From a virus: a stretch of DNA of 46,664 nt. The notes beneath the pieces were generated by a model. The model was not told where the DNA came from, searched no databases, and saw only the letters and a list, made by a program, of their open reading frames with translations. Both the position numbers and the translations under genes were made by a program. The number at the start of each line of letters is the position of its first letter. Positions within the stretch are counted from its first letter, which is position 1. Below are positions 10,586 through 14,696 of this stretch, piece after piece. Where the stretch lies: positions 1-46,664 of IMG/VR virus record IMGVR_UViG_3300009082_000029; one strand, 5' to 3'.

Positions 10586-10891
10586 TTAAGTGAAACTAAA
10601 TCTGTCGTTTTCTTCTATGATAGTTGTGGTGAACGGGAATCCGATTTCAGGAACTTGCTGAATTGTTTCTATTAGACCGGAGGATCCTGTAAACAGAATA
10701 TGTTTTTCGTTATTAAATGATATCTGCAAATGCAGGCATTTACCACTTCCACGGTCTTTAAATACTTTTGAATCCTCAATCTTAAAGTGATGAACTACTA
10801 TTTCACGGTTAAGAATCTTTGACATTTTTATCTTATCGCCTTCAAAGCCTTTAGTTGTAGACTTTATATTGAACTGGCTAAAATTATTCAT
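10586..10891 (-). CDS. Small DGR-linked protein, candidate accessory factor
   Basis: 101 aa, beta-rich, with segments GDKIKMSKILNREIVV, CLHLQIS and ILFTGSSGLIE. It starts inside the end of the reverse transcriptase gene (8-nt overlap), so it is translationally coupled to it. I recall similar small proteins next to reverse transcriptases in Bacteroidota DGRs. It does not resemble the four-helix Avd accessory protein; the strand pattern could fit an OB-like nucleic-acid-binding fold. A DGR accessory role is inferred from coupling and position. Confidence 0.6.
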   Translation of the reverse strand: MNNFSQFNIKSTTKGFEGDKIKMSKILNREIVVHHFKIEDSKVFKDRGSGKCLHLQISFNNEKHILFTGSSGLIETIQQVPEIGFPFTTTIIEENDRFSFT

Positions 10892-11837
10892 GTAATAACT
10901 TATTTAATAGGTTTTTACTGTTGCAGTGTATTGACCAGCCACGGTATGAGGCAATTGATTGCGCGTTTTTGTTTCGCCTGATCATTCGGGCAAAGTTTTG
11001 TTTTATTGTTTTCCGAAGCCTGGTATGGGTGTGCCTGAAAACATATCCCACAAAATCGATTCCACGGTCATCAACAGGAAATACCTGGTAATTCCCTTTT
11101 AACTGTAGTTTAAGTTTCTCTTGCAGATACGTTCTTATTTCGCTAAGCAACTGGTGAAGGTATGTTTTGTTATCTGACAGTATAACCAGGTCATCGGCAT
11201 AGCGGAAATAATACTTCACGCGCTTAACCTCTTTCATCCAGTGATCAAAATAGGTGAGATAGAAGTTTGCAAAATACTGGCTTAGATAGTTTCCGATCGG
11301 AAGACCATCGGCGCTATCAATAATTCCATCGAGGAGCCATAACAGATCCTGGTCCTTGATTTTTTTCCGGAGCAGATGCTTCAGGATGTAATGATCAACG
11401 TTAGGGTAGAACTTTTTGATATCGAGCTTCAGGCAATATTGTGTACTTGGTTCATCTCTCAGTGCGTTTTTTACTGCATTGGCTGCAGCATGAATGCCGC
11501 GAGTTTTTATGCAGCTGTAAGTATCGGCCGTGAATGTTGATACAAATATGGGCTCCAGTATATTCATCACCGCATGATGGGTAATGCGATCAGGAAAGTA
11601 CGGCAGTCGGAATATCAATCGTTCCTTTGGCTCATATATAGTGAACGTGGTATATGGCGAAGTTTTATATGTTTTTTCTGTAAGCATTTGGTGCAGCGCT
11701 TGTATGTTTGCATCCCGGTTCCGATCATGCTCGATTACCCCGGGCTGTTTTAATTTTCCTTTGCGGGCAATTGAATCGGCCAGCTGCAGGTTTTCAATGC
11801 TGCAGATTTGTGAGTATAGATTGTTTATTCTTTTCAT
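10884..11837 (-). CDS. DGR reverse transcriptase
   Basis: 317 aa. It copies the template-repeat RNA with errors at adenines. RT blocks are in order: RLIFRLPYFPDRITHHA near 73-89, LKLDIKKFYPNVDH at 136-149 (first catalytic Asp), LPIGNYLSQ at 179-187, which matches the IGxxxSQ-type motif 4 typical of DGR reverse transcriptases, YADD at 213-216 (catalytic Asp pair), and DFVGY at 261-265. There is no maturase domain, unlike group II intron enzymes. It begins 103 nt downstream of the template repeat, and the two target genes precede that repeat. All essential residues appear intact, so the element looks functional. Confidence 0.95.
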   Translation of the reverse strand: MKRINNLYSQICSIENLQLADSIARKGKLKQPGVIEHDRNRDANIQALHQMLTEKTYKTSPYTTFTIYEPKERLIFRLPYFPDRITHHAVMNILEPIFVSTFTADTYSCIKTRGIHAAANAVKNALRDEPSTQYCLKLDIKKFYPNVDHYILKHLLRKKIKDQDLLWLLDGIIDSADGLPIGNYLSQYFANFYLTYFDHWMKEVKRVKYYFRYADDLVILSDNKTYLHQLLSEIRTYLQEKLKLQLKGNYQVFPVDDRGIDFVGYVFRHTHTRLRKTIKQNFARMIRRNKNAQSIASYRGWSIHCNSKNLLNKLLHE

Positions 11838-11939
11838 GCCTTTGCTATTTTAAGATCGCGTTCTCTTACGGTACCAGCGCTCTTTAAATTAAGATCATTT
11901 TTTGCCATGTGGGCAGGGTTTATGCCGCGAGTACTTTTC

Positions 11940-12023
11940 GCATAGGTGGGAACTGACATTCGTATTCGTGTTCGTATAGTTGTAATTCGAATTCGAAAAA
12001 CTGAACCTGGAAGACAAAACTGA
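11940..12023 (-). repeat. DGR template repeat (TR)
   Basis: 84 nt in the 213-nt gap between target gene 1 and the reverse transcriptase. Read on the minus strand in the target frame it is rich in AAT, AAC, TAT, TAC and ACG codons, the classic mutable DGR codons. Against VR1 (12132-12215) 17 positions differ, all at coding-strand A of the TR (23 A in total); none of the 61 other positions differ. Against VR2, 15 of 16 differences over 79 nt are at A. Confidence 0.96.
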
Positions 12024-12050
12024 CAGCTCCGCGACATACAACCTTTTTAA

Positions 12051-12458
12051 TTATTTGGAGTAAAGAAAATAGTCGACGTACTCAGCCTCAAACTGCTTTG
12101 CTATATACAGCGCCTTTTCTGAGGTATCGGTGCAAAGGCGGGAACCGACAGACGTAAGCGCGCTCGCAGAGTTGTAATCCGAACACGAAAAACCGAACCC
12201 GGAAGACAAAACCGAGTACCATGGAAAATATTTCCATTGATTGCTATTACTCCAGTCAGGTGTCCATCCATTATTGATAGCCATGTAGATAACCATCAGT
12301 TTATATGCCGCAAGTAGAGGCTTCTGAAATTCATCCGGAAGAAATGTAAATTGAGGTAATTCAACAATGCCCAGCTTTATGCTGGCATCTTCAAAAGTTT
12401 TGATTGTTCTGAAATCAAAACTTACTTTTTTGGGTGCTTTTTTTGTTTTAATTGTCAT
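12051..12458 (-). CDS. DGR target protein 1 (contains VR1)
   Basis: 135 aa, no signal peptide or membrane helix. The basic N-terminus leads to a TFEDASIKLGI segment, then YKLMVIYMAINNGWTPDW, then the variable stretch at residues 82-109, ending VGSRLC and a short helical tail. This is a small stand-alone variable protein, probably with a C-type-lectin-like fold as in known DGR targets, not a tail fibre. It is a paralogue of the next gene upstream (same layout and C-terminal half). In VR1 the template Asn/Tyr/Thr codons have become C, D, S, A, S, A, L and S. Ligand and location in cell or virion are unknown. Confidence 0.88.
   Translation of the reverse strand: MTIKTKKAPKKVSFDFRTIKTFEDASIKLGIVELPQFTFLPDEFQKPLLAAYKLMVIYMAINNGWTPDWSNSNQWKYFPWYSVLSSGFGFSCSDYNSASALTSVGSRLCTDTSEKALYIAKQFEAEYVDYFLYSK
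12132..12215 (-). repeat. DGR variable repeat VR1
   Basis: 84 nt aligned without gaps to the TR; 17 substitutions, every one at a template adenine. It encodes residues 82-109 of target protein 1. The 3' end in coding sense (GGTTCCCGCCTTTGC) is shared with VR2 and differs from the TR at three adenines, as expected for the initiation region versus its template counterpart. Confidence 0.95.
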
Positions 12459-12462
12459 GATG

Positions 12463-12927
12463 TTATTTGGATATGGTTAATAAATCTCTGTACAAATCAA
12501 GGAATTGATTTGCTGTATATTCTGATTTTTCTTCAGATTCAAAGCAAAGGCGGGAACCGACACCCGAAGTCGTGCCCGAATAGCCGTAATCCGAATTCGA
12601 AAAACCGGACCCGGAAGACAAATTAAACCAGGGCCACCACTTCTTTTCATTTTCGTTTTTCCAATTTGGAACCCATCCGTTATTGATTGCCCTGGCAATA
12701 AGTTTTAACTTTTTATAGGCAATCTCATCGGGCGTATCTTTGTCGTGAAATACATCGCCAGGATGCACGTTAAATTTATTGCATGCATCATCGAAGGTTT
12801 TGATGTTTTCAAAGTCTTCAGCTTTCAGATTGTCTTTTCCGAATTCTTCTTCGAGCTCTTTTTTGAGCCATTCCGGAGCTTCCGGATAGAGCTTTTTGGC
12901 TTTCTGTTTTTCAATTGTAAGTGACAT
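12463..12927 (-). CDS. DGR target protein 2 (contains VR2)
   Basis: 154 aa, no signal peptide. The N-terminal 35 residues are charged and helical (ELEEEFGKDNLKAED), followed by the shared core (TFDDACNKFNV, LIARAINNGWVPNW, WWPWFNLSSGSGFS) and the variable region at about residues 103-128, ending GVGSRLCFES and a helical tail. It lies 4 nt before target gene 1. VR2 differs from VR1, so the two genes have diversified separately from one template. The core is a family I associate with many Bacteroidota phages and genomes; the binding partner is unknown. Confidence 0.88.
   Translation of the reverse strand: MSLTIEKQKAKKLYPEAPEWLKKELEEEFGKDNLKAEDFENIKTFDDACNKFNVHPGDVFHDKDTPDEIAYKKLKLIARAINNGWVPNWKNENEKKWWPWFNLSSGSGFSNSDYGYSGTTSGVGSRLCFESEEKSEYTANQFLDLYRDLLTISK
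12544..12622 (-). repeat. DGR variable repeat VR2
   Basis: 79 nt aligned without gaps to the TR; 15 substitutions at template adenines and one elsewhere (near the 5' coding edge). Homology to the TR stops beyond 12622. Seven adenine positions carry the same change as VR1; the others differ, giving a distinct protein surface. Confidence 0.93.
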
Positions 12928-12944
12928 AGATTTATAGGTATTAA

Positions 12945-13409
12945 TTAATTAAATTGAATTTGCCTTATTTGTTCCGATGTCAAAATAGTCCATCCCTGCA
13001 TTCCTTTCCAGGGGAATGGTTTAATGGCTTTTACGTTTTCGTAAATGTGACAATAAAGATCAGGATGGTATTGGACAAAGCATTTATCTTCATCCTCGGG
13101 ATTCATTGGCCGGCAATTTACAAGGCGACCGATGGCAATGGCGTTACCTGCACTCTTTGTTCCGGATCCGCTTTGAAACATTTCGCCTTTAGAAACCATG
13201 TCGATTATGCGACTCCATTGTTTTTGGCCGCAAATGCTAAATACTTTATTTAGCGGATAAGATATTTTGGAGGCGCAGATAAGTACAAGGCCGCGATATT
13301 TTGTTGGCCAGGTTCGGGTTTCGATTTTACCATGGAGCATTAAGCTGGCAAATGGCTCTTTCCAGGATAATGCGCGAACGGTTTCAGTTATTAATAATTT
13401 TTCTGTCAT
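12945..13409 (-). CDS. ASCH-domain protein
   Basis: 154 aa. The N-terminal motif RALSWKEPFASLMLHGKIETRTWPTKYRG, seen across residues about 12-40, is the typical ASCH (ASC-1 homology) opening, followed by a strand with CASK and a Gly-rich AIAIGRLVNC. ASCH domains bind RNA or modified nucleosides, and some cleave RNA or amidohydrolyse N4-acylcytidine. In phages they are frequent early genes. It sits upstream of the DGR targets, after a hairpin-containing leader. Exact substrate unknown; the domain call is confident. Confidence 0.85.
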   Translation of the reverse strand: MTEKLLITETVRALSWKEPFASLMLHGKIETRTWPTKYRGLVLICASKISYPLNKVFSICGQKQWSRIIDMVSKGEMFQSGSGTKSAGNAIAIGRLVNCRPMNPEDEDKCFVQYHPDLYCHIYENVKAIKPFPWKGMQGWTILTSEQIRQIQFN

Positions 13410-13456: not shown

Positions 13457-13828
13457 TTAATCAGGTAATTTTACCTTATCGAGATTTTTGCGCTGCCAGG
13501 CTTCGAACTCGTTGATGATTTGTTGAATTCCGACTATGTGTTCAGGCGCGCATCGTTCTGAATCGCATGCAACCCAATAGGCTTGTAAGGCTTCGGTGGC
13601 AAGCTTGTCTTTTGCCACGAATGTGAATGATGGCATGCCTTGCTTTTCAGCATCGGCAATCAGTTTTTTTGGATCTTTTTTGCTCATAAATTGGTTTTTA
13701 TTGGTTAAACATATAGTTCTATAGCATTCAGGACAAAATGCGCACATGCCGTCGCAGTCATACATTGACAGTGCAATCTGCCCATTTATGGTGCGCAATA
13801 GTTTCTTTACTTTGTAGCGGATTGACAT
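13457..13828 (-). CDS. Small early protein, possibly two parts
   Basis: 123 aa from ATG 13828. The first 47 residues hold a Cys cluster (CDGMCAFCPEC, then C). From Met48 (start 13687) comes a region, MSKKDPKKLIADAEKQ then CAPEHIVGIQQIINEFEAWQ, that looks like a self-contained small protein of a kind common in Bacteroidota phage early operons. Either the two parts form one protein or the true start is 13687. It overlaps the end of the upstream Cys-rich gene by 22 nt when the long start is used. Function unknown. Confidence 0.55.
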   Translation of the reverse strand: MSIRYKVKKLLRTINGQIALSMYDCDGMCAFCPECYRTICLTNKNQFMSKKDPKKLIADAEKQGMPSFTFVAKDKLATEALQAYWVACDSERCAPEHIVGIQQIINEFEAWQRKNLDKVKLPD

Positions 13829-14022
13829 AGCTGTAATTTTTTAAGATTGGCTGCGCGTTTGTGGGGTTGTAATTTTTCAACACAATCGGGCTGATCGGCG
13901 AACTCAACACAATGGCTGCAGAGATCCTGGGTTTCATTATTAAGCCAGAAACATGGTCCGAAATCGGGATGGTTGCAGGCGTTGTTTTCGGTGCATCCGC
14001 ATATTTTGCAAATTCCACTCAT
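13807..14022 (-). CDS. Cys-rich zinc-binding-type miniprotein, copy 2
   Basis: 71 aa. It opens with CKICGCTENNACNH and continues to CFWLNN then LCSHC, a pattern that should bind one or two zinc ions. The C-terminus is basic (KLQPHKRAANLKKLQ). It is a close paralogue of the gene at 14487-14696, with which it shares order, spacing of all cysteines and the basic tail. Probably nucleic-acid or protein binding; not further identified. Confidence 0.7.
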   Translation of the reverse strand: MSGICKICGCTENNACNHPDFGPCFWLNNETQDLCSHCVEFADQPDCVEKLQPHKRAANLKKLQLCQSATK

Positions 14023-14343: not shown

Positions 14344-14499
14344 TTATTTTTTTAAAGATTTAGAATCATTATCGCGATTTAGGTATTGCAGGTACCGCGG
14401 CAATAAAAGTTCAAGCTCCTGCAGTTCGACATCGTTGCATGCCTGCAGGAATTGCTCAACTGTTACTGTGATGGTGAATTGCTTGTTTAAAATTGGCAT
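14344..14499 (-). CDS. 51-aa early protein
   Basis: Starts MPILNKQFTITVTVEQF and ends SKSLKK; an amphipathic strand-helix protein with a conserved-looking TVTVEQFLQACNDVELQEL core. Its start lies 13 nt inside the end of the upstream Cys-rich gene, and it stops 4 nt before the next gene, so spacing supports it as a real translated gene despite its size. Unknown function. Confidence 0.65.
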   Translation of the reverse strand: MPILNKQFTITVTVEQFLQACNDVELQELELLLPRYLQYLNRDNDSKSLKK

Positions 14500-14696
14500 A
14501 TCTGCAATTTTTTAATGTTGGCGGCGCGCTTGCGGGGTTGGAGCTTTTCAACGGTTGGATCATTTGGTAGCTCAACGCAATGACTGCAAAGATCTTGCTT
14601 GGTGTTATTGAGCCAGAAGCAGGTTCCGAAAATTGGGTGGTCGCATGCGTTATCTTCGGTGCAGCCACAGACTTTGCAAATTCCTTTAATTGGCAT
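14487..14696 (-). CDS. Cys-rich zinc-binding-type miniprotein, copy 1
   Basis: 69 aa. It has the same cysteine pattern as the gene at 13807 (CKVCGCTEDNACDH, CFWLNN, LCSHC) and the same basic tail (KLQPRKRAANIKKLQ). DNA similarity extends across the whole gene, indicating duplication within this operon, with the 51-aa and 103-aa genes lying between the copies. Role unknown; probably a small zinc protein acting on host factors or nucleic acid. Confidence 0.7.
   Translation of the reverse strand: MPIKGICKVCGCTEDNACDHPIFGTCFWLNNTKQDLCSHCVELPNDPTVEKLQPRKRAANIKKLQICQF

Follow-up and report, generated by a model that had tools for sequence, protein, structure and literature searches.

What kind of element is formed by a reverse transcriptase gene and three related repeats in this phage, and does each difference between the repeats mark random diversification? 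Diversity-generating retroelements (DGRs) are the main natural system of targeted protein hypermutation and are being adapted as engineering tools. The window analysed here, 46,664 bases long, comprises the complete virus record. The cassette lies entirely on its minus strand (Table 1), where the order of transcription is T2, T1, the template repeat (TR), the reverse transcriptase (RT), and a 101-aa gene.

The cassette and its repeats

The plus strand of the record encodes an integrase and a Cro/C1-type repressor between 22.7 and 25.9 kb. These, together with genes for a VapE-like primase/helicase, a DnaC-like loader, a head maturation protease, and a tape measure protein, point to a temperate tailed phage. 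The cassette lies outside the tail region, with replication genes on one side and head genes on the other. Relatives of the RT in bacterial genomes (58-82% identity) are nearly all from Bacteroidota, the closest being from Prolixibacteraceae; a prophage of Pedobacter arcticus A12 (L115) also carries this kind of cassette. The RT itself matches PHROG 1423 (reverse transcriptase, E 1.4e-124) and is of the DGR type; among solved structures its best match is PDB 8ub7, entered under the name 'Reverse transcriptase' (E 7e-45).

Table 1. Features of the cassette, in coordinates of the 46,664-base record.
Feature	Position	Strand	Remarks
Target gene T2	12463-12927	minus	154 aa, PHROG 11581 (function unannotated); VR2 near C-terminus, followed by a 26-residue tail
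VR2	12544-12622	minus	79 nt; 16 mismatches to TR, 15 at A and one T to C
Target gene T1	12051-12458	minus	135 aa, PHROG 11581; ancient paralogue of T2
VR1	12132-12215	minus	84 nt; 17 mismatches to TR, all at A
TR-enclosing RNA helix, 5' arm	12032-12043	minus	
Template repeat (TR)	11940-12023	minus	84 nt, 23 A
5' CAG-context template adenines (12021, 12008, 12002)	12002-12021	minus	G in VR1 (3/3) and in VR2 (2 covered); fixed G in relatives
TR core	11959-11993	minus	17 adenines of the family-variable type; 11 changed in VR1, 10 in VR2
3' CAG-context template adenine	11954	minus	G in both VRs; pairs with U in conserved TR-RNA helix 2
IMH*-like TR 3' end	11943-11947	minus	A11947 to G and A11943 to T in both VRs; fixed in relatives
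TR-enclosing RNA helix, 3' arm	11917-11927	minus	
Small conserved hairpin in TR-RT spacer	11903-11915	minus	UGCC/GGCA type
DGR reverse transcriptase (RT)	10884-11837	minus	317 aa, IGNYLSQ and YADD
Small conserved gene overlapping the RT stop	10586-10891	minus	101 aa, PHROG 19665 (function unannotated); candidate accessory factor, non-Avd

Two neighbouring features were noted in passing. The minus-strand gene directly upstream of T2 (12945-13409) encodes a 154-aa protein of PHROG 3193 with, by eye, an ASCH-type domain; it is not kept with the cassette at other loci. The minus-strand stretches 13758-14022 and 14487-14696 are regions with ORFs of about 70 aa, and form 77-82% identical repeats some 670 bp apart, probably a duplication.

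A preliminary description of this DNA had called it an intact DGR in which one template serves two targets, and its counts were confirmed when recomputed. VR1 aligns to TR without gaps, with every difference at a template adenine (hypergeometric P ~4e-13) and all 61 non-adenine sites identical. VR2 agrees with TR at every non-adenine site but one (P ~5e-10). The motif 4 described as IGxxxSQ-type and the YADD motif are both present in the RT, and VR1 and VR2 are indeed unlike each other, differing at 13 of the 17 core adenines. Both VRs lie in frame inside their ORFs, 26 codons before the stop. Searching the whole 46.7-kb record with TR revealed no further TR or VR copies, only TR, VR1, and VR2. 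The region assigned in the preliminary description (11940-12622) takes in TR and the VRs but misses the RT, the small partner gene, and the greater part of T1 and T2.

The TR/VR pattern and the RT bear out the view of an intact DGR, but some of the adenine differences are fixed. Six of the 17 changes in VR1 and five of the 15 adenine changes in VR2 are constant across the family. They comprise adenines in the context CAG (four in VR1, three in VR2) and two in each VR at an IMH-like 3' end. Being constant, these changes are no evidence of random diversification; the core changes that remain number 11 and 10, respectively. Across 118 loci the last ~10 nt of TR and VR carry fixed mismatches, one of them silent, a difference of the IMH versus IMH* kind. 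A hairpin or cruciform of the BPP-1 type was sought after the VRs, where only short inverted repeats occur, those downstream of VR1 and VR2 being unlike each other. Stop-codon avoidance in the TR frame was also considered as a signal; all three frames (3/3) are stop-safe, so it is uninformative.

Activity was assessed in relatives, drawn from 80 viral and 80 genome contigs that encode relatives of the RT and later 79 more, partly overlapping, which provide more than 200 related cassettes for comparison. Over 81 loci, 67% of the VR cells that face a TR adenine are altered, versus 0.5-0.7% for C, G, and T. The preliminary description had suggested comparing related genomes for variants confined to template adenines, and such variants were found. 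In one pair of contigs (L005/L014), VR1 differs at 12 of 88 sites, all opposite a template A, with 1 difference in 4332 flanking positions. In a second pair (L008/L009) the two distal VRs differ, against 1 in 3742 positions outside, and in a third (L012/L013) VR2 differs at 9 of 78 sites, all at A, with VR1 identical. Because the differences between such closely matching contigs are nearly confined to template-A sites, these relatives must be active, and because the changes fall in T1 or T2 separately, the two targets must be rewritten independently. Neither phage records nor IMG/VR yielded a close relative of this phage, which is presumed active on the strength of its family. Adenine-directed retrohoming into two genes, as first claimed, is supported by these sequence traces among family contigs and would extend to this phage.

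It is very improbable that the cassette is a degenerate remnant whose activity has been lost. No sister phage carrying other VRs came to light for this record, which would fit such a loss, but all frames are open, the catalytic motifs of the RT are intact, TR and the VRs still agree almost perfectly at non-adenine sites, and close cassettes are active.

A conserved pair of targets

The TRs of relatives fall into a short class of ~75-90 nt, which includes the TR of this phage, and a long class of ~115 nt. Where at least 1.1 kb of upstream sequence is available, short-class loci carry two VRs in 116 cases, three in 11, and one in five, giving at least two targets in 127/132; a single VR is present at 65/66 long-class loci. 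At one locus (L138), a third VR lies 3365 bp upstream of TR, more distant than at other loci. T1 and T2 are homologous (hhalign E 4e-54), and in a tree built from the non-VR parts of 106 target proteins they separate with 3 label changes, compared with a mean of 36.8 for shuffled labels. Judged from these counts, the two-target layout is ancestral for the family and not peculiar to this phage, and on the tree T1 and T2 are an old duplication maintained as a pair, in two paralogue clades. Their homology, and the third copies that sometimes arise (the 11 loci above), would also be expected if T1 and T2 were recent, redundant duplicates, but the family-wide clades and the retention of at least two targets at nearly every short-class locus leave that reading with hardly any weight.

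Neither target has a match in Pfam or, by sequence or fold, in the PDB. AlphaFold models of T1 and T2 have a mean pLDDT of 79-81 and are weak over the VR, and their BFVD matches are uncharacterised phage proteins only. No fold is claimed for T1 or T2, since the models are weak over the VR and no PDB fold matches. With hhalign, the VR segment of T1/T2 matches the C-terminus of the long-class targets, which are ~445 aa in length (probability 95%, 33 columns); no other part of a C-type lectin domain could be recognised in T1 or T2. We infer that T1 and T2 are recognition proteins working as a pair.

Multiple targets are known from about one in seven DGRs (PMC3521204) and from several phages (PMC8143477, PMC8008677, PMC10743442). 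Like the cassette described here, the DGRs of Bacuni, Quimbyvirus, and nd4/nd12 serve two diversified genes from one template; however, their targets are far apart or architecturally different, whereas T1 and T2 are tandem, small, family-conserved paralogues. A conserved, tiny diversified pair that lies near replication and packaging genes, and not within a tail-fibre gene, points to a role different from classical receptor switching.

Template RNA and a probable partner of the reverse transcriptase

The sequence surrounding TR is strongly conserved among relatives, and an 11-pair helix encloses TR. Across this helix, an inner helix, and the hairpins of the spacer, 98.5% of cells are paired, and 11 pairs show compensatory change. 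None of 500 shuffles reaches the observed pairing, and slid versions pair at 28-42%. Folded alone, the TR RNA of this phage is no better than shuffles (z -0.8), the structure being visible only through covariation. Rfam has no match within the record. The U that pairs with the 3' CAG adenine belongs to the inner helix, and this pairing may be the reason why TR retains A where the products need G.

No match to bAvd was found in the record. Avd homologues are absent from about a quarter of DGRs (PMC7290462), and since Avd is not a defining feature, its absence does not exclude membership of the DGRs. The crAss-type RTs that lack Avd form 'lineage 3' in the same study (PMC7290462), and the RT of this phage is a candidate member by its 49-59% identity to crAss-like RTs and by its gene layout. 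The 101-aa gene is the sole other gene conserved with the cassette, lying 3' of the RT in 151 of 160 loci; the nine loci without it are mostly cut contigs or belong to another TR class. A homologue is also found 3' of the RT in the archaeal virus vir525. In a Bacteroidia genome contig (L144, 5773-7242; E 6e-40) and in the Bacteroides hankyphage p00 (L265, 2998-4302; E 4e-14 to 3e-13), the RT and the 101-aa domain form a single protein, with the domain at the C-terminal end. The possibility that it is Avd itself was rejected, as a profile comparison with the Avd-position protein of BPP-1 left the two unaligned (hhalign 0.4%). Pfam, NCBIfam, PADLOC, and the PDB hold no convincing relative. The 101-aa protein probably works with the RT as a substitute for Avd, and to judge from the pattern of its residues it may be a small beta-barrel that binds nucleic acid. 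A conserved partner gene that is twice fused to the RT could explain how an Avd-less DGR functions.

Several loci without the 101-aa gene (L141, L150, L155, L176, and L177) have another small gene after the RT, whose product starts MKSxSDVRP... and is perhaps a different accessory factor. ORFs resembling this gene also follow the RT in phages Versailles and cr7_1.

The DGR of Bordetella phage BPP-1 (mtd, avd, TR, brt) shares with the present cassette the adenine-specific TR/VR changes, a homologous RT (35% identity), the IMH/IMH* difference at the 3' end, and the order target, TR, RT. It differs in having one large tail-fibre target and a 134-nt TR without CAG, where this phage has two compact targets and an 84-nt TR. 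Furthermore, in BPP-1 the small gene bbp7 occupies the avd position, flanked by VR and TR, whereas here Avd is missing and another small gene follows the RT. Hankyphage p00 likewise carries a DGR of a Bacteroidales phage, and the C-terminal domain of its RT is homologous to the 101-aa protein; in contrast, it has a single, very large C-type-lectin target (PMC6199706) and a TR of ~117 bp that contains no CAG. The crAss-like DGRs (crAssphage LMMB, cr53_1, cr60_1, cr115_1) have RTs 49-59% identical to that of this phage, the same target-TR-RT order, and CAG adenines that mostly become G. No avd was reported for the crAssphage LMMB DGR (PMC7290462). Unlike the present cassette, they have a single tail-protein target, and no homologue of the 101-aa gene was found in them.

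Adenines in the context CAG

Whereas template adenines of the core become A, G, T, or C, the adenine of the 'YCAG' motifs flanking the core is nearly always G in VR1 and VR2 across 118 loci. Adenines in C-A-G read G at 98% of short-class sites (n=598) and 99% of long-class sites (n=153), counts that come from related sequences and are thus non-independent trials; in the well-sampled core contexts GAA, AAT, AAC, and TAC, G accounts for only 11-34%. At internal sites flanked on each side by three or more changed adenines, 68/71 CAG adenines are G, compared with 867/3451 in other contexts. Pairs of VRs made from one template differ at 3.1% of CAG adenines versus 64.5% of core adenines. The contrast persists where the protein is indifferent. 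At fourfold degenerate third positions within the core, CAG adenines give 57 G and one A (57/58), while other contexts give 21 G, 25 T, 18 A, and 5 C (21/69 G), a difference with a Fisher P of 4e-17 on rows that are related by descent. Exceptions to the rule amount to 15 of 743 sites, with A retained in the L185-L187 lineage. One of the few exceptions is a locus (L161) where an internal CAG reads T in both VRs (d594 and d199). We found no prior description of the CAG rule in the DGR literature looked at.

Several explanations that leave the RT out were weighed. The CAG sites could lie outside the transferred tract, as IMH/IMH* do in BPP-1, so that the VR would keep its own base. This is clearly true of the last 3' positions, where a silent CTA to CTT change is fixed and template C or G also mismatches, and the 5' CAG sites too lie beyond the first variable adenine. 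As a general account it is nonetheless unlikely. The silent long-class site AATGCAGG lies between changed adenines, yet reads G in 50/53 VRs from 29 distinct TRs. Silent non-adenine columns beside CAG marks agree between TR and VR in 98-100% of cases though they vary between loci, which points to transfer, and the mismatches there are almost exclusively A to G. Somewhat less likely again is that the RT copies CAG faithfully and mismatch repair of T.G restores the resident G. CAG could be a low-error context, given that the single CAG of each of the distant DGRs BalMu-1, VP58.5, and Closwp03 remains A. However, the rule tracks relatedness of the RT across Bacteroidota phages, crAss-like phages, and an archaeal virus, and not one host repair system, and a single-base correction would need to spare the neighbouring core changes. 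Repair of the CpG type was judged insufficient, as outcomes C and T are absent.

In the products, most CAG sites specify glycine (SSGFGF, VGSRLC), as would be expected if ordinary random mutagenesis were followed by selection of the protein for glycine. That explanation is improbable and, like protein selection in general, insufficient, because silent sites also become G: TCA to TCG (serine) and GCA to GCG (alanine) still show ~97-98% G. Moreover, A at several sites where glycine is required would waste most products, yet TR conserves it. To non-transfer, repair, and selection we prefer, with slightly better than even confidence, the view that the CAG rule is a property of the RT of this clade, and we infer that the RT itself is its cause. 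In the slippage idea, the RT re-uses the base it has just copied (PMC12875486), which would predict A to G before G; the same paper reports context effects for BPP-1, and CAG goes unnamed in its text.

The region is, in all likelihood, a functional-type DGR of a temperate Bacteroidota phage. In the proposed mechanism, the enclosing helix would bring both sides of TR together in the TR transcript, which the RT would copy with errors at adenines. The cDNA would then replace the VR of T1 or T2, so that one template would diversify two small proteins independently, with the small protein encoded right after the RT taking the place of Avd and the last ~10 nt acting as IMH/IMH*, untransferred. The error spectrum would depend on context, core adenines (in GAA, AAT, AAC, TAA, and others) giving any of the four bases and the adenine of C-A-G nearly always giving G. 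Such a rule would let the template hold A, either for RNA pairing or as a neutral base, where the products require glycine. The elements of this scheme that have support in sequence are the TR/VR pattern, activity in the family, paralogy of the targets, the CAG statistics, RNA covariation, and linkage of the small gene together with its two fusions.

The cassette is a real DGR of a known kind, within a distinct family marked by a paralogous target pair, a non-Avd partner, and the CAG rule. More tentatively, at a little under even odds, the evidence also allows for an RT clade with a two-mode code (CAG adenines almost always to G, adenines in most other contexts random), a new non-Avd accessory protein, and a conserved, compact, perhaps non-tail target pair. 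A CAG context with a fixed outcome would amount to built-in protection for chosen codons, which bears on protein engineering.

Beyond the family, CAG adenines read G at 20/20 sites in five crAss-like phages and an archaeal virus, at two of four sites in crAssphage LMMB (A retained at two), and at two of three in phage Perkons (A retained at one). The rule is separable from the 101-aa gene, because the crAss-like phages show it without the gene. In one crAss-like group (L264, L270-L275), template adenines before G in GAG and TAG are also often G in the VR, suggesting that there the rule may extend beyond CAG.
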